Made by a program: the position numbers and the translations under genes. A model generated the notes under the pieces. The model was not told the DNA's origin. It was given only the letters and a program-made list of their open reading frames with translations, and searched no databases. From contig PGXV01000007.1 of NCBI GenBank assembly GCA_002839315.1, positions 1 to 64,000 on the forward strand: a stretch of DNA of 64,000 bases. The letters run 5' to 3'. Every line of letters begins with the position of its first letter. Position 1 is the stretch's first letter. Shown here piece by piece: positions 14,830 to 57,051 of this stretch. Source of the stretch: Spirochaetae bacterium HGW-Spirochaetae-3 (GTDB lineage Bacteria; Spirochaetota; Spirochaetia; Treponematales; UBA12059).

Positions 14830-15577
14830 GGGCGATGACCTCCGCGGCCAATTTCTCGTAGCTCTTGGCGCCGATGCAGTTGGGGTCGTACAGGCAGACG
14901 GGGACGCCGTGCGACGGCGCCTCGGATAGCCTGATGTTGCGCGGTATGATCGTCGAGAAAACCCTCTCGCCGAAATATCCGGAAACCTGCTGGACGACGT
15001 CCTGGGCCAGCCTGGTCCTGGAGTCGTACATGGTGAACAGGATGCCGGAGATCTTGAGCCTCGTATTCATGCCCTTCTGGACGAGCTGTATCGTCTGCAG
15101 TATCAGGGACAGGCCCTCGAGGGCGAAATACTCGCATTGCAGCGGGATCAGCACCTCGTCGGCCGCCGATAGCCCGTTGAGCGTCAACACGCCGAGCGAG
15201 GGAGGGCAATCGATGAGCACGAAATCATACTCGTCCTTGACCGCCGCGAGCGCGTCTTTCAGGTAATCGTCGCGGCCTTCCTTGTCGACGAGCTCGACGG
15301 TCGCGCCGGACAGCGCTATGGACGACGGCGTGAGGAAGAGACCCTCGACGGCCGTCGGCTTTATCACGTCGCGCATCGTAGCCGCGCCCGATATGACCTC
15401 GTAGGCTCCCTTGGCCTTCTTCTCGCCGCCGACGCCGCTCGTCAGGTTGGCCTGCGGGTCGAAGTCGACGAGAAGGACGCGCTTGCCCGAGCGGGCGAGG
15501 TAGGCTCCGAGGTTGATTACGGTCGTCGTCTTGCCGACGCCGCCTTTTTGATTAACGAATACTATTATCCTGGACAT
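14822..15577 (-). CDS. parA: Chromosome partitioning ATPase ParA (Soj)
   Basis: A deviant-Walker ATPase of 251 aa. The P loop is NQKGGVGKTTT (residues 9-19) with the signature lysine, Walker A' is LLVDFDPQANL, and Walker B is VLIDCPPSLGVLTLNGL. It lacks the N-terminal DNA-binding domain of plasmid ParA, so it is the chromosomal Soj type. ATG 15577 follows AAGGA with proper spacing; the longer frame to 15616 is rejected. It forms an operon with parB and the SRPBCC gene. Confidence 0.96.
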   Translation of the reverse strand: MSRIIVFVNQKGGVGKTTTVINLGAYLARSGKRVLLVDFDPQANLTSGVGGEKKAKGAYEVISGAATMRDVIKPTAVEGLFLTPSSIALSGATVELVDKEGRDDYLKDALAAVKDEYDFVLIDCPPSLGVLTLNGLSAADEVLIPLQCEYFALEGLSLILQTIQLVQKGMNTRLKISGILFTMYDSRTRLAQDVVQQVSGYFGERVFSTIIPRNIRLSEAPSHGVPVCLYDPNCIGAKSYEKLAAEVIARG

Positions 15578-49837: not shown

Positions 49838-51043
49838 ATGTCAGACGTATCATCCACCTCGCGGACCGGCGGCGTCGCCTGGCCCGGGATCGCCTCGTTC
49901 CTCGTACTGGCCTTCGGCCTTTCCTGGCTCGCGGACCTCGTCCTGCTCCTGGGCGGCGGCCTCGGGAATCCCGCGTTCGGGCTGATCATGCAGTTCCGCA
50001 TGATGACGCCCGCCTTCGCCGCCATCGTGCTCGGGTTCTTCTTCGATCGGAACTCGGTCATCCACCGCGGGCGCCTGCACGGCCCGGTCCGACTGTTCAT
50101 CCTCTATTTCTTGGGACTGACCCTGCTTCAGGCGGCGGGAGCCGGCATCGCGATCGCGTCGCCCGCGGGCATCGCCCCGGTCAGCCAGGCCCTCATGGCC
50201 ATGAACGTCGTCGGGCTCGTCGCGCTGGTCGTTCTCCGGTCGCGGAAAGGCGGCAAGGAGTCGTTCCAGGGCGCGGGTCTGGCCGGCGGTCGGTGGCAGG
50301 TCTGGGCTCTCTACGGACTCGGGATCATCGCCTTCTACGGCCTCCAGGCCTTCTTGAACTACGTCACGGGGCTCGGGGCCCCGGTCGACCTCGCGACGAC
50401 GCTTCCCCCGAACGCTCTGGGCGCCATGCCAGCGCCGGCGTTCCTCGCGGTCGGCGCCTTCAACGCCGTCGGGCTCGGCCCCCTGCTCGGCTTGGTTATC
50501 ACCTTCGGAGAGGAATACGGCTGGCGCGGTTACCTCCAGGGCGAGCTCGTCCGAATGGGGCGCCGCCGCGGCGTCCTCCTCCTCGGCGTTATCTGGGGCG
50601 CCTGGCACTGGCCGGTCATCTGGATGGGCTACAACTACCCCGGCCATCCCGTCCTGGGAAGCCTGGCCATGGTCGCCGTCTGCGTGATCCTGTCATTCTT
50701 CCTGGCACACGCCGTATACAAGGCGAAGGGTATATGGGTCGCGGCCTACCTGCACGCGCTGAGTAACCAGACCTTGAGCTTCACCTTCATCCTGCTCGTG
50801 AAGCCGGCCGACAACCTGATCTCCTTCGGGATCGGCTTGCCCGGCCTCGCTCTCGGGACGCTCGTCGTCCTGATCCTCCTCCGCGATCCGATATGGAGGG
50901 AAGAGCGTCTCTACCGAATCGGATCATCCGACTGTCTCGTAGGACGGCGCCTCGCGGGAAACAGGGTCCGGAGTCCGCAGGCTGGCCACCCAGGCGCTAC
51001 CCGCTACGGCGGCCGCGACCACGACGATCCGCACCCACGGTAA
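49838..51043 (+). CDS. CPBP-family intramembrane metalloprotease
   Basis: A 401-residue membrane protease of the CAAX-processing/bacteriocin-processing (Abi) family. The motifs are FGEEYGWRGYL (EExxxR), WGAWHWPVIW (FxxxH-like) and a third His in YLHALSNQ. About eight membrane helices are predicted. ATG 49838 follows AAGGGG. The final 40 residues are not hydrophobic, look like read-through and overlap the opposite DUF454 gene by 120 bp. Substrate unknown; some relatives provide self-immunity to peptides. Confidence 0.85.
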   Translation: MSDVSSTSRTGGVAWPGIASFLVLAFGLSWLADLVLLLGGGLGNPAFGLIMQFRMMTPAFAAIVLGFFFDRNSVIHRGRLHGPVRLFILYFLGLTLLQAAGAGIAIASPAGIAPVSQALMAMNVVGLVALVVLRSRKGGKESFQGAGLAGGRWQVWALYGLGIIAFYGLQAFLNYVTGLGAPVDLATTLPPNALGAMPAPAFLAVGAFNAVGLGPLLGLVITFGEEYGWRGYLQGELVRMGRRRGVLLLGVIWGAWHWPVIWMGYNYPGHPVLGSLAMVAVCVILSFFLAHAVYKAKGIWVAAYLHALSNQTLSFTFILLVKPADNLISFGIGLPGLALGTLVVLILLRDPIWREERLYRIGSSDCLVGRRLAGNRVRSPQAGHPGATRYGGRDHDDPHPR

Positions 51044-51358
51044 CGGAATCGCGAAGGCGCCGATCGTCGCGCAGCTCATCATCGCGACTATGGACACGAC
51101 CTTGCCGCTCTTGCGGATCCGGCCTTCCTCCACGAACATACGCACGCCCGGCCCGAAGCGCTTGTTGGCTATGATACGCTCGTACATGCGCCGGTTCGAG
51201 CGGAGGAAGGCGAAGGCGGCGATGATCCAGAAGATAGTCGTGGGTAGCCCCGGCACGAAGACGCCGAGCCAACCTAGCCCGAAAGCCGCCCAGCCGACGG
51301 CCGCGGTCAGCCGGCGCCTCGTGGCGCCGCCGGCCGGGGATGTCCGGGGCTCGGTCAC
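50924..51358 (-). CDS. DUF454 (YbaN-like) inner membrane protein
   Basis: A 144-residue protein of the DUF454 family: [42 protein letters not shown] is the typical first half, followed by two membrane helices (about residues 88-120). The function is unknown. It starts at GTG 51358, overlapping the catalase stop (GTGA), so it is translated from the same mRNA as catalase and peroxiredoxin. Its end overlaps the CPBP gene by 120 bp on the other strand. Confidence 0.85.
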
Positions 51359-52812
51359 CTTGGAACTTCCGATAGCGGGATACCCATCGCGTCTGCCACG
51401 CCCTTGCCGTAGGCCGGATCAGCCTTGAGGCAGTTGCCTATGTGCCTGATCTTGATGTCGCGGGGGGCGTCGCCCATGGCCCTCGACGTATTCCAGAATA
51501 GCGCCGATTTCTGGTCGGGGCTCATCATCCTGAAAAGCGAGCCGGGTTGCGAGTAGTAGTCGTCGTCCTCGCGGTGGTTCCAGCGGCCGGCCGCGCCTTC
51601 CAGGTCGAGCGGCGGCTCGGAGAAGTCGGGTTGTTCCCGCCACTCTCCGTAGCTGTTCGGTTCGTAGCCTATGGCCGAGCCGTAGTTGCCGTCGACGCGC
51701 ATCTGCCCGTCCCTATGGTAGGCGTGGAACGGGCAGCGCGGCGCGTTGACCGGTATGCTCTCGTGGTTGACGCCGAGGCGGTAGCGCTGGGCGTCGCCGT
51801 AGGAGAAGAGGCGCCCCTGTAGCATCTTGTCCGGGGAGAAACCGAGGCCCGGTACGATGTTGGCGGGGTTGAAGGCTGCCTGCTCGACATCGGCGAAATA
51901 GTTCTCTGGATTCCTGTTGAGTTCCAGGACGCCCACCTCGATGAGGGGATAGTCGCCGTGGGGCCAGACCTTGGTAAGGTCGAAGGGGTTATACGAGCAG
52001 GACGCGGCGTCCTTCTCCGGCATCACCTGCAGGAACATGGTCCATCGGGGGAAGTGGCCGCTATCGATGGCTTCGAGGAGGTCCCGCTGGTTGCTCTCCC
52101 TGTCCTTGGCGACGACCGCCTCGGCCTCGAGGTCCGTCAAATTCTTGATGCCCTGCTGTGTCTTCAGGTGATACTTAACCCAGACGCGCTCGCCCTTGGC
52201 GTTGATCATGCTGTAGGTGTGGCTACCGTAGCCGTTCATGTGCCTGTACGAGGCCGGAATGCCGCGTTCGCTCATGGTGATGGTCACCTGGTGCAGGGCC
52301 TCGGGTAACGAGGTCCAGAAGTCCCAGTTATTCTTCGCGCTACGCATGTTGGTGCGAGGGTCGCGCTTGACCGCGTGGTTCAGGTCGGGGAACTTGAGCG
52401 GATCGCGGAGGAAGAACACGGGGGTATTGTTGCCTACGAGGTCCCAGTTCCCCTGCTCTGTATAGAATTTTATGGCGAAGCCGCGGATGTCGCGCTCGGC
52501 GTCGGCCGCGCCGCGCTCTCCTGCGACCGTCGAGAAGCGAACGAAGGTCTCCGTTTTCTTGCCAACTTTCGAAAACAGCATGGCCTTGGTATACTTCGTG
52601 ATATCTCGGGTCACGGTGAAATCGCCGAACGCTCCCGATCCCTTGGCGTGCATGCGCCGCTCGGGTATGACCTCGCGGTCGAAATGCGCCAGCTTCTCCA
52701 GGTACCAGGCGTCCTGGAGCAGCATGGGGCCGCGCTTACCCGCGGTCATGACGTTCTGGTTGTCGGGAACCGGAGTTCCCGTCGCCGTGGTCAAATTTTT
52801 ATCTGCGTCCAT
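51355..52812 (-). CDS. katA: Catalase (monofunctional haem catalase)
   Basis: A clade 3-size catalase (485 aa) that dismutates hydrogen peroxide. The distal His lies in [12 protein letters not shown], the Asn in [13 protein letters not shown], the proximal haem Tyr in [14 protein letters not shown], and NADPH-binding residues in the [11 protein letters not shown] region. ATG 52812 follows GGGAGG. It is 86 bp after the peroxiredoxin gene on the same strand and overlaps DUF454, so all three probably follow one sigma-54 promoter. A catalase is unusual for an anaerobe that also carries a tungsten enzyme. Confidence 0.97.
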
Positions 52813-52898: not shown

Positions 52899-53615
52899 TT
52901 ACTTCTTGATCGTGGCCAGCACCTTCTCCTTGTCTAGCTTCTTCGTGCAGAAGAACCAGTCGTGACAGGTGATTCCCTGCTCCTTGCCGTCCATGCGGTC
53001 CTTCGCGACGCCGCAGGATCCGGGGGGCGGCACGATCACGTCGTCGCCGGGTCGCCAGTCGGCGGGACACGCGACCGAGAAGGCGTCGGCGGTCTTGAGC
53101 GCCTGCACGACGCGCAATAGCTCGTCGAAGTTGCGTCCGATGCTCAGCGGGTAGTAGATGACCGCCCGGACGATACCCTTGGGGTCTATGAAGAAGACGG
53201 CCCTGACGGCCTTGGTCGCGGCCTCTCCAGGCTGGATCATGCCGTACTTCTTGGCTATCTCCATCGTGATGTCCTCGATTAGCGGGAACTTCACCTCCAT
53301 GTTCTTCATTCCCTTATAATCTATCTTCTCCTTGATGGTCCTGAGCCACGCGATGTGGCTATAGAGCCCGTCGATCGAGAGGCCGACGAGCTTGCAATTC
53401 AGTTCCTCGAACTTCTGCTCGAGCGACGCGAACGTTATGAATTCGGACGTGCAGACGGGGGTGAAGTCCGCCGGGTGGCTGAACAGGATGACCCATTTAC
53501 CCTCGAATTGCTTGGGAAAGTCCAGCTCACCCTGCGTCGTAACGGCCTTGAAGGCGGGAGCCTTGTCGCCTATGCGGGGAATACCGGTTACCGTAGTCTC
53601 GATAATATCGCTCAT
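52899..53615 (-). CDS. Peroxiredoxin, Prx6/archaeal AhpC type
   Basis: A thiol peroxidase of 238 aa. The peroxidatic Cys55 is in PADFTPVCTSEF; a resolving Cys is likely in the C-terminal segments SVACPADW and GITCHDWFFCTKK. The size and the SVACPADWRPGDDVIVPP region place it with Prx6-like archaeal AhpC rather than the E. coli AhpC group. No AhpF is next to it, so the reductant is unknown. ATG 53615 follows AAGGAG. It is preceded by a near-perfect sigma-54 promoter. Confidence 0.95.
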   Translation of the reverse strand: MSDIIETTVTGIPRIGDKAPAFKAVTTQGELDFPKQFEGKWVILFSHPADFTPVCTSEFITFASLEQKFEELNCKLVGLSIDGLYSHIAWLRTIKEKIDYKGMKNMEVKFPLIEDITMEIAKKYGMIQPGEAATKAVRAVFFIDPKGIVRAVIYYPLSIGRNFDELLRVVQALKTADAFSVACPADWRPGDDVIVPPPGSCGVAKDRMDGKEQGITCHDWFFCTKKLDKEKVLATIKK

Positions 53616-53663
53616 ATCCACTCCTTGATACTACTGATTGCCTGAAGGGCATAGGTATGAATA

Positions 53664-53679
53664 AGCAATAGTCGTGCCA
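53664..53679 (-). promoter_or_regulatory. Sigma-54 (-24/-12) promoter for the peroxiredoxin operon
   Basis: On the minus strand TGGCACGACTATTGCT (53679-53664) matches the RpoN consensus TGGCAC-N5-TTGC[AT] in every fixed position, including GG at -24 and GC at -12. Transcription would start near 53654, giving a leader of about 40 nt to ATG 53615. A sigma-54 activator gene is divergent. Confidence 0.85.
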
Positions 53680-53693
53680 GGATAGCTGTATCT

Positions 53694-53733
53694 ATATTAA
53701 TTATTTATCTGGAAACAAAATAAGAATTAATAT
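53694..53733. promoter_or_regulatory. Inverted repeat, likely enhancer sites
   Basis: ATATTAATT (53694-53702) and AATTAATAT (53725-53733) form a perfect 9-bp inverted repeat with centres 31 bp apart, three helical turns. It lies between the sigma-54 promoter and the activator gene, close to the -24 element. It could be the upstream activating sequence and also an autoregulatory site. Confidence 0.6.
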
Positions 53734-53746
53734 GAACATCATGCTC

Positions 53747-53775
53747 TTGTCAGGTACCGAAAAATGGCTGATACT
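53747..53775 (+). promoter_or_regulatory. Leaderless-type promoter of the activator gene
   Basis: TTGTCA (53747-53752), 17-bp spacer, GATACT (53770-53775), ending 8 nt before ATG 53784. No Shine-Dalgarno. Confidence 0.55.
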
Positions 53776-53783
53776 ATACCGAA

Positions 53784-55349
53784 ATGTCGGTAGTCAACGA
53801 AAAATCGCTGTACAGCATCGAGCCCCGCGCCACGATGAGGCTCGGTAACGAGATAATGCTCTCGCCGGAACGGACCCTGGATATCGTACTGGAATCGCTT
53901 CGGGAACTCGTGGACTACGAGCTCGCGGTGGTGATGGGGTACTACGGCGACGATAGACTCATAGTCAGGACGACGAAGGGCCCTCTCGCCTCGTCACGCC
54001 TGTCGGGATACTCGATATCGCTCTCTGCGCGCTCCGATATAGCCGACCTGATCGCCCTGGGGAGGCCCCGGCTATTCAGGGACGACGAGGCGCACGAGGA
54101 TATCTATACGGGCGTCCTCGACCTGCCCGCCGGCCATTCCTGCATAGCGGCCCCGCTCATGATCGACGGTACGGCGATCGGGTTGCTGACGCTGGATCAT
54201 CGAACCTGCGGCGTCTTCTCCGAACAGATCCTGAGCTTCATCGGCGTCATTTCGCGGTTGATAGCGGTGGCGCTCGCTCAATCGGAGGCGTCCAGGGCCT
54301 TGCAGGACAGGAACTCGTTGCTCATCGCTGAACGTAACCGGCTGTTGGCACGCGATGACGAGGCCTTCCGGGACCTGGTGGGGTCGTCTCCGGCTTGGCT
54401 TTCGGCCCTCGACTCCATCAAGCTGGTCGCGGCGACGGAGTCGACGGTCCTACTGCTTGGCGAGACGGGTACCGGCAAGGAAGAGGCGGCTAGGGCGATA
54501 CACCGGCTTTCCCCGAGGGTGGATAAGCCGTTCGTCGCCGTCAACTGCTCGGCGATGCCCGCGGCGCTCGCGGAGAGCGAGCTGTTCGGCCACGAGAAGG
54601 GCGCGTTCACGGACGCCCGCTCGCTACGCCGCGGCCGGTTCGAGCTGGCCGACGGAGGGACGCTGTTCCTCGACGAGATCGGCGACCTGCCGACCGAGAT
54701 CCAGCCTAAGCTGCTCCGCGCCCTTCAGGAAGGCAACTTCGAGCGGGTAGGCGGGGAGTCCTCCGTACGGGTCGACGTCCGCGTGATCGCCGCGACTCAC
54801 GCGGACCTCGGCGCGGCCGTCGACGAGGGACGTTTCCGCGAGGATCTTTTCTACCGCGTCGCGGTCTTCCCGATCAGGCTTCCCCCGCTACGCGAGCGTC
54901 ACGGCGACGCGATCGTCCTCGCCGAGTTCTTCGCGTCCAGGTTGCGGTCGCGCCCCGGCTGGGCCCGGCTCTCCTTCGACGCCGAGGCGCTCGAGGCGCT
55001 GGAGGAGAACCCGTGGCCCGGTAACGTTCGCGAGCTGCGCAACGCGGTTGAACGGGCTGGTATCCTGTGCCGCGGCGGTACGATAGGCGCATCGGCGCTA
55101 CTCGCCGGCGACTGGGCCAAGGTTCGCGGCTCTTCGCGGGTTGGCTCGAGGATAACGGAGCGGATCGAGGCGCCATGCGGCGGCGTCGAGACGCTGGCGG
55201 AGGCCGAGCGGCGGTACGTCGCGGCCGCGCTGGAACGGGCCAACGGCAAGATATACGGGCCGGGAGGCGCGGCCGAGGCTCTCGGGCTCAAGCCGAGCAC
55301 CCTGCAGAGTCGCATGAAGAAGCTCGGGCTGAATCGGAAAGGCGACTGA
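53784..55349 (+). CDS. Sigma-54-dependent activator (GAF-AAA-Fis, NorR-like)
   Basis: A 521-residue enhancer-binding protein. A GAF-like sensor domain (about residues 10-170) precedes an AAA+ domain with Walker A GETGTGKE (about 227-234), GAFTDA (about 273-278) and Walker [12 protein letters not shown], then a Fis-type HTH (about 470-515: [21 protein letters not shown]). The canonical GAFTGA loop is GAFTDA here. The domain order is that of NorR. A sigma-54 promoter and inverted repeat divergent from it suggest it controls the peroxiredoxin-catalase operon, with the GAF domain as peroxide or NO sensor; the signal is inferred. Confidence 0.92.
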
Positions 55350-56006: not shown

Positions 56007-56411
56007 CTACGGCGTCTCGTCGCCGGCTGGGCCTTCATCCGGCGCTTGCCGAGACGCTTCCTCCGACGCGCCCGATCCTTCATCTCCCTGCTTGCAGTCA
56101 TGGGCGAAGCGCGCCTTGGCCTCGGCCTTCCACTCGTCGCGGGGCTTGCGGGCCTTGGACCCGTCATGGCCGCCGCTCGGGTAACCGGGCTTGATAAGGA
56201 TGTGCGACAACAGCACGAGTCCCCAGCCTTGCCAGTAGCCGATACGCGGGAGCCCGAAGATAACCGGCATGAGCCAATTCCACAGGAGCATCACGACCCA
56301 TCCGAACAGGAACGCGAACAGCGCGGCGAGCGCCGTTCCGCCTATTACCATGCCGACGATGGCAAGCGGCGCGTACTTGCGCGTCGATTCGCCGAATCCC
56401 CAATGTGACAT
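56007..56411 (-). CDS. Two-helix membrane protein paired with an ECF sigma factor
   Basis: A 134-residue protein with two membrane helices (about residues 15-40 and 58-76), the motif LWNWLMPVIFGLPRIGYWQGWGLVLLSHIL and a charged C-terminal tail. From memory, this family commonly follows ECF sigma factor genes in many phyla; it may hold or modulate the sigma factor, but it lacks the zinc-binding anti-sigma motif. It lies 9 bp downstream of the sigma gene on the same strand. Function is not established. Confidence 0.7.
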   Translation of the reverse strand: MSHWGFGESTRKYAPLAIVGMVIGGTALAALFAFLFGWVVMLLWNWLMPVIFGLPRIGYWQGWGLVLLSHILIKPGYPSGGHDGSKARKPRDEWKAEAKARFAHDCKQGDEGSGASEEASRQAPDEGPAGDETP

Positions 56412-56420
56412 ACGTCCTCC

Positions 56421-56933
56421 TTACTCGTATCCTGAGAGCGCGACTCGAAGCCTGGCGAGCGCGTAGCGCTTACGCGCCGCCAGGGTATCTATCGTAATTC
56501 CGGTCCTCTTCGATATGGACGCGAAGGTCTCGCCGCGTATGGCCTGCGCTATGACGACGTCCCGCTGCTCCGGCGGCAGGGCGTCGATGGACGCGTAGAG
56601 GGCGTCGAGGGTCTCGGCCCGTTCCGCCTCCTCGGGAGCGCCGCGTAGGGCTCCGTCGACGAACGTGTCGAAATCGTCGGCCTCGCTCTCGCCGGCCGCT
56701 TTCCTTCGGGCGCGCCTGCGCCAGGCGTCTGCGGCCGCGTTGCGGGCGGCTCGCCACAGCCAGGCGCCGACGTCCCTCAGGGGCTCCATCGAGTCCAGGT
56801 TGGCGAGCGAGCGCGCGACGAGGTCGTGGAAGGCGTCTTCCGCCTCCTGCGCTCCTATCCTCGAGCCGAGCCATTCCAGTATCGGGCCCCGCTGATCCGC
56901 GTAGCCCGCTTCGAACCGTTCGCTTGTTTCCAT
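56421..56933 (-). CDS. ECF-family RNA polymerase sigma factor
   Basis: A 170-residue sigma-70-type factor of extracytoplasmic-function size. Region 2 is AEDAFHDLVARSL and DVGAWLWRAARNAAADAWRRR; region 4 is IDALPPEQRDVVIAQAIRGETFASISKRTGITIDTLAARKRYALARLR. The region 2-4 linker is acidic. ATG 56933 is preferred to a GTG at 56945. It is followed by a small membrane protein that may regulate it. No target promoter is recognised. Confidence 0.9.
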   Translation of the reverse strand: METSERFEAGYADQRGPILEWLGSRIGAQEAEDAFHDLVARSLANLDSMEPLRDVGAWLWRAARNAAADAWRRRARRKAAGESEADDFDTFVDGALRGAPEEAERAETLDALYASIDALPPEQRDVVIAQAIRGETFASISKRTGITIDTLAARKRYALARLRVALSGYE

Positions 56934-57051
56934 ATCTTTCACCACTATAGACGCGCCGCGGCCCGGAATTGTATAGGCGGAGCGAGTAATTCTCGCGGGC
57001 GGGGCCGGCCGTCCGCTTGACCTGTTTTATGTCTCTATGCGAAGATACGGC

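Follow-up and report, generated by a model that had tools for sequence, protein, structure and literature searches.

Sigma-54 control of a peroxiredoxin–catalase operon by a dedicated, divergently encoded NorR-like activator, as the original prediction had it for this locus, is well supported and very probable: promoter, divergent linkage and a three-site array that co-occurs with the activator are all conserved, and the genome encodes rpoN. At the level of sequence, our analysis of the window (the whole 64-kb stretch of DNA) and its relatives establishes the promoter, three sites and their conservation, an array confined to genomes that have the activator, and targets limited to oxidative defence. 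The best reading is that a NorR-like activator has been re-aimed at oxidative defence, and the locus probably works as a self-contained module of array-bound activator, sigma-54 promoter and oxidant signal. We lean slightly towards a wider proposal, in which this activator family would fill the place of the missing OxyR or PerR in many spirochaetes, Treponema denticola included, its NorR-like GAF domain turned peroxide or oxygen sensor and its three-site enhancer marking a regulon of peroxiredoxin, catalase, Dps and flavodiiron protein. Peroxide defence is the textbook territory of OxyR and PerR; new here is the application to it of NorR-type machinery.

Table 1. Features of the operon, its control region and the divergent activator gene in the window
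Feature	Position	Strand	Basis and remarks
DUF454 small membrane protein	50924..51358	-	Pfam PF04304, 1e-28
Catalase, operon gene 2	51355..52812	-	Pfam PF00199, 1.3e-190
Peroxiredoxin (AhpC-TSA with 1-cysPrx_C), operon gene 1	52899..53615	-	NCBIfam NF009668 over cut-off; Pfam
Sigma-54 promoter TGGCACGACTATTGCT	53664..53679	-	Perfect consensus; also kept ahead of peroxiredoxin or Dps in relatives
AT-rich stretch with ATATTAATT inverted repeat	53694..53733	.	Not conserved
Candidate enhancer site 1, promoter-proximal	53756..53769	+	ACCGAAAAATGGCT, 8/10 consensus bases
Candidate enhancer site 2	53778..53791	+	ACCGAAATGTCGGT, 10/10 consensus bases; includes called start codon
Candidate enhancer site 3, distal	53796..53809	+	AACGAAAAATCGCT, 8/10 consensus bases
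GAF-AAA+-Fis (HTH_8) sigma-54 activator	53784..55349	+	521 aa from called ATG 53784; Pfam
GAF sensor domain with linker	53856..54347	+	Alignment of NorR and 26 orthologs; AlphaFold2; Foldseek

A perfect sigma-54 promoter upstream of peroxiredoxin

Pfam bears out the predicted gene identities, peroxiredoxin, catalase and DUF454 with a divergent GAF-AAA-Fis activator (Table 1). The DUF454 gene shares 4 bases with the end of the catalase gene, the order catalase then DUF454 recurs at L112, L113 and L115, and a conserved AAGGAG precedes the peroxiredoxin gene in an alignment of the intergenic regions. The activator carries Sigma54_activat (2.9e-68), GAF (1e-11) and HTH_8 (1.3e-5) domains, with PF00158, PF25601 and PF02954 all over cut-off. 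Its sigma-54 interaction AAA+ domain, GAFTGA-type loop (here GAFTDA) and C-terminal Fis-type HTH are those of a bEBP, and the locus matches, with candidate enhancer sites upstream, a -24/-12 promoter and rpoN in the genome. Also in the neighbourhood of the activator is an ECF-like sigma factor gene (56421-56945(-)), with a small membrane-protein gene (56007-56411) after it.

The element TGGCAC-N5-TTGC, predicted at 53679-53665(-) upstream of peroxiredoxin, catalase and DUF454, is present exactly there. The 16-mer shows zero mismatches to the consensus TGGCACGNNNNTTGCW, and the peroxiredoxin transcription start is predicted near 53653. Absence of rpoN had been named beforehand as refuting this assignment; a genome search finds the gene, which closes that route. 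Searching likewise for the same promoter elsewhere returned five exact matches in the 3.88 Mb genome, the peroxiredoxin promoter among them. With one mismatch allowed, the whole genome holds 22 matches against 24 for a reversed control, that is, no enrichment. Since this frequency is at chance level, we dropped the genome-wide count as evidence, and the case for the promoter rests on conservation at orthologous loci: 9–12 of 12 positions are kept in activator-linked spirochaete loci.

A conserved three-site array beside the activator start

An alignment of eight intergenic regions reveals two conserved features, the sigma-54 promoter and palindromes beside the activator start. In the window these palindromes are three copies of ACCGA-N4-TCGGT beginning at 53756, 53778 and 53796 (spacing ~22 then 18 bp), an array (53756-53809) that lies partly inside the first called codons of the activator gene. 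Loci across the phylum repeat the pattern, with three sites, a proximal pair ~22 bp apart, a distal pair ~18 bp apart, and the promoter usually 70–130 bp beyond the proximal site. No such array arose in 5,000 shuffles of the region, the 64-kb window holds no second one, and the genome as a whole has no other good one. A profile (R2) built without the window and without its nearest relative recovers the array of the window with a score of 40.2 bits (E=1.7e-11). The array is the likely enhancer of the operon. Two other single perfect palindromes in the genome (C14:179680 and C18:236749) were taken as chance because they lie within coding sequence and have no array or promoter.

Because sites 2 and 3 overlap the first called codons, the true start of the activator may be ATG 53835 instead of ATG 53784. 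A sigma-70-like match for the activator gene (53747-53775, 9/12, of a quality expected about once by chance) spans site 1; because of this, and because site 2 covers the called ATG, binding would probably repress the activator's own expression. NorR is known to repress its own.

Two readings of the intergenic region compete with this assignment. The sigma-54 match could be fortuitous, with the operon under a sigma-70 promoter and another regulator, and a motif frequency equal to that of the reversed control would fit; but the same element occupies the same place in ~15 loci, where a sigma-54 activator and a conserved enhancer array lie next to it, and a sigma-70 scan gave one weak site only, on the opposite strand, so that we regard coincidence as very improbable. 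Similarly improbable is a role as the activator's binding site for the 9-bp inverted repeat ATATTAATT/AATTAATAT, which the original prediction had offered as its sites. The repeat itself is there (53694-53702 and 53725-53733, 31 bp start to start), and its 12-bp arms are 92% complementary; yet none of seven aligned relatives has it, the nearest included, 69 of 2,000 shuffles (3.5%) hold as much, and the different, strongly conserved ACCGA-N4-TCGGT array lies nearer the activator. The AT-rich stretch would be at most a bending site.

Array, activator and oxidative-defence genes across the phylum

We sampled 393 genomes of the Spirochaetota phylum, calling the activator at E<=1e-100 and the array at E<=1e-4. 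The activator occurs in 21 and the array in 17, all of them within the 21 (Fisher p=2e-26). With training genomes left out, the array is found in 4 of 8 genomes with the activator versus 0 of 372 without (p=8e-8). Activator orthologs in the phylum share 50–77% identity. Within the family, other genomes encode activators 57–77% identical that diverge from the same peroxiredoxin, several followed by catalase and DUF454, and the divergent linkage extends beyond the family. Six orthologs lack both a linked target and an array nearby. A further observation concerns the much reduced 1,139,633-base Treponema genome G078, which keeps an ortholog (L202, 50%) with no linked peroxiredoxin or array.

For array matches outside the training set, the following genes were read blind. 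These proved to be peroxiredoxin (G041, G147 and G014), a Dps–peroxiredoxin pair (G053 and G193), Dps (G214 and G283) and, also in G283, a flavodiiron protein of the NorV family. In genomes further removed, the activator has as its divergent neighbour Dps (L191 and, in BRH_c32, L003) or Dps with catalase (L002, a Bacteroidetes MAG). With peroxiredoxin, Dps–peroxiredoxin, Dps, flavodiiron protein and catalase as targets, the regulon is therefore one of oxidative defence. Weak array matches in the activator-less genomes G022, G021 and G112 precede no oxidative-defence gene and were rejected as noise, as was a match at G147:1434979 (E=0.001) that lies inside a gene, again with no oxidative-defence gene after it.

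Genome G186, which we take to be T. denticola ATCC 35405, carries the array upstream of a peroxiredoxin near its contig start (three sites at L231:15282, 15298 and 15319, then TGGCATGAAATTTGC at 15438), with the activator far away, near 2.35 Mb. This array belongs to the training set of the model, and was first located by prior prediction from linked loci. The T. denticola peroxiredoxin TDE0011 is induced 38.6-fold by oxygen; the same study reports no OxyR homologue and, for control of the gene, considers regulators induced by oxygen or 'a yet unidentified transcriptional regulator' (PMC2965109). The species has no known OxyR (PMC2965109, PMC12724145). Deletion of TrtA lowers peroxiredoxin expression, of which TrtA accounts for part only, and TrtA has yet to be confirmed as binding that gene's promoter (PMC12724145). 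The response to oxygen stress that TrtA and OxtR1 are connected with would be that of the activator too, but they are small XRE-type and TetR-type proteins, unlike the GAF-AAA+-Fis activator.

A NorR-like sensor domain with changed metal-site residues

The relation of the activator to NorR was judged by features. Its best NCBIfam match is NorR, at 383.5 bits against an equivalog cut-off of 476. The NorR system of E. coli (norR-norVW) shares the GAF-AAA+-HTH order, an activator divergent from its target, a perfect sigma-54 promoter and three tandem enhancer sites. Read in the same way as the window, norVW shows TGGCACGCAATCTGC as its promoter, and its three GTCA-N3-TGAC sites are spaced by 21 and 24 bp, so the architecture of the locus is NorR-like while the site is different (ACCGA-N4-TCGGT, spaced 22/18); the targets also differ, being peroxide-defence genes here.

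When mixed activators were aligned loosely, NorR was misplaced relative to the activator clade, and residue claims therefore rest on the ortholog alignment. Numbered from ATG 53784, the conserved GAF residues are D85, D106, Y108, H118, C120, D138 and C142. All 27 orthologs keep NorR positions D96, Y98, H111, C113 and D131 and have an extra invariant Cys (Cys142 in the window); the H-x-C motif is absent from the other sampled GAF activators. The iron ligands of the NorR GAF domain are R75, D96, D99, C113 and D131 (PMC4601167). Three of these, D96, C113 and D131, are kept, whereas R75 is Asp in 27 of 27 and D99 is variable (Thr in the window). An AlphaFold2 model of the domain (pLDDT 88.9) is a GAF fold by Foldseek, which returned generic GAF domains only and no pointer to a ligand. 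The domain probably contains a metal or redox site akin to that of NorR, with changed chemistry. Target genes and altered metal-site residues together make peroxide or oxygen a likelier signal than NO. The NO-responsive NorR and this sister-like sensor, which differs from it in two of five metal ligands, offer a natural comparison.

The loop reads GAFTDA (Asp277) in place of GAFTGA, as the original prediction noted, but the altered RpoN contact that it proposed has been discarded, because the variant is common and NorR G266D keeps sigma-54 activation intact while escaping GAF repression fully (PMC2941729). Of 93 other activators sampled, 20 have GAFTDA, among them an entire paralogous GAF group from the same family; so does ortholog L203, whose array is a textbook one. 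L112 reads GSFTDA, and most orthologs GAFTGA, GSFTGA or GAFSGA. Almost all genomes in the family encode that paralogous group (L091-L111), which shows GAFTDA throughout.

Two other readings of the sensor were weighed. The activator could be a true NO sensor like NorR, its operon directed against nitrosative stress with peroxiredoxin as a peroxynitrite reductase. Domain order, best NCBIfam match, three enhancer sites as at norVW (PMC4601167) and the five conserved NorR positions all agree with this, as does a NorV-family flavodiiron protein among the targets; peroxynitrite can also be a substrate of peroxiredoxins, and NO one of flavodiiron proteins. Against it, two of the five NorR iron ligands (PMC4601167) are not kept, R75 being an invariant Asp and D99 variable, the score falls short of the NorR cut-off, the targets are mainly catalase, Dps and peroxiredoxin, and published work describes induction by oxygen for the peroxiredoxin that bears the array in the T. 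denticola-like genome; we consider an NO sensor unlikely. Less likely still is an activator that is constitutive in this genus, with GAFTDA equivalent to the NorR G266D escape mutant and the operon following the abundance of RpoN or of the activator. The complete escape of that mutant (PMC2941729), and the presence of GAFTDA in the window and GSFTDA in its nearest relative L112, unlike most orthologs, speak for it; the frequency of GAFTDA among other activators and in the paralogous GAF group speaks against it, as do the still conserved GAF residues of the window protein, since a disused sensor should not keep them.

Comparison with known peroxide regulators

By inspection, we recognised no OxyR or PerR in the window genome, which is 98% complete. 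The activator is not a LysR protein, and the sole OxyR-like LysR protein (24% identity) has no Cys at the place aligned with Cys199. A PerR is a Fur-fold protein in which a PerR-type Asp replaces the Fur-type Glu. Of two FUR-family proteins in the genome, one reads HHDHLTCVECGAIVEF (Fur-type Glu) and the other is Zur-like and sits beside an ABC metal-transporter operon; neither is PerR-like by residues read by eye. OxyR and PerR regulons have the same target set, namely peroxiredoxin, catalase and Dps, but use a LysR activator or a Fur-type repressor where this locus has a sigma-54 activator and enhancer. In the prxS-rpoN2 system of Rhizobium etli and Mesorhizobium loti (NifA-RpoN), peroxiredoxin is likewise expressed from a sigma-54 promoter (PMC3538637), though under NifA control within symbiotic nitrogen fixation, in contrast to a dedicated oxidative-defence activator; prxS is not needed for symbiosis.

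In the mechanism that we favour, a re-aimed NorR-like activator would bind the three palindromes ~75–120 bp upstream of the sigma-54 promoter and assemble on the array as an AAA+ ring. A non-haem iron centre like that of NorR, but with altered ligands (D85, D106, C120 and D138 with H118, plus Cys142), probably sits in its GAF domain and would sense peroxide or oxygen instead of NO. Relief of the GAF domain by an oxidant would allow ATP-driven promoter opening and transcription of peroxiredoxin, catalase and DUF454, the activator thus doing the job of OxyR or PerR elsewhere. Weighing against this mechanism are the chance-level frequency of the -24/-12 motif in the genome, the degenerate window sites 1 and 3, the TAGCAT variant and the poor -12 elements of the two non-spirochaete loci described below, the six orthologs that lack target and array, and the activity that peroxiredoxins and flavodiiron proteins can have on peroxynitrite and NO, respectively. 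With a candidate regulator, binding sites, promoter type and regulon now named, the question is directly testable.

Variant promoters and sites at related loci

Several loci depart from the window in detail. Upstream of the flavodiiron protein (L269:4780-4960(-)), the array is accompanied by a -24 element (TGGCATG) and a poor -12 (ATGA). The two non-spirochaete loci (L002:5770-6010 and L003:5740-6010) have the activator, sites and Dps with degenerate promoters (TGGTAT-N5-TTGA and TGGTAC-N5-TTGT, respectively), a good -12 missing in both. At L193:4511-6956 (G375), activator and peroxiredoxin are linked and the promoter is good (TGGCATGTTTATTGC); the sites are weak and apparently within the activator reading frame. 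Finally, four Treponema-type relatives of G186 (L263, L264, L265 and L266, from G041, G147, G053 and G193) have TAGCAT rather than TGGCAT as the -24 element, at the same position in the array-linked promoter, a sequence unusual for sigma-54.
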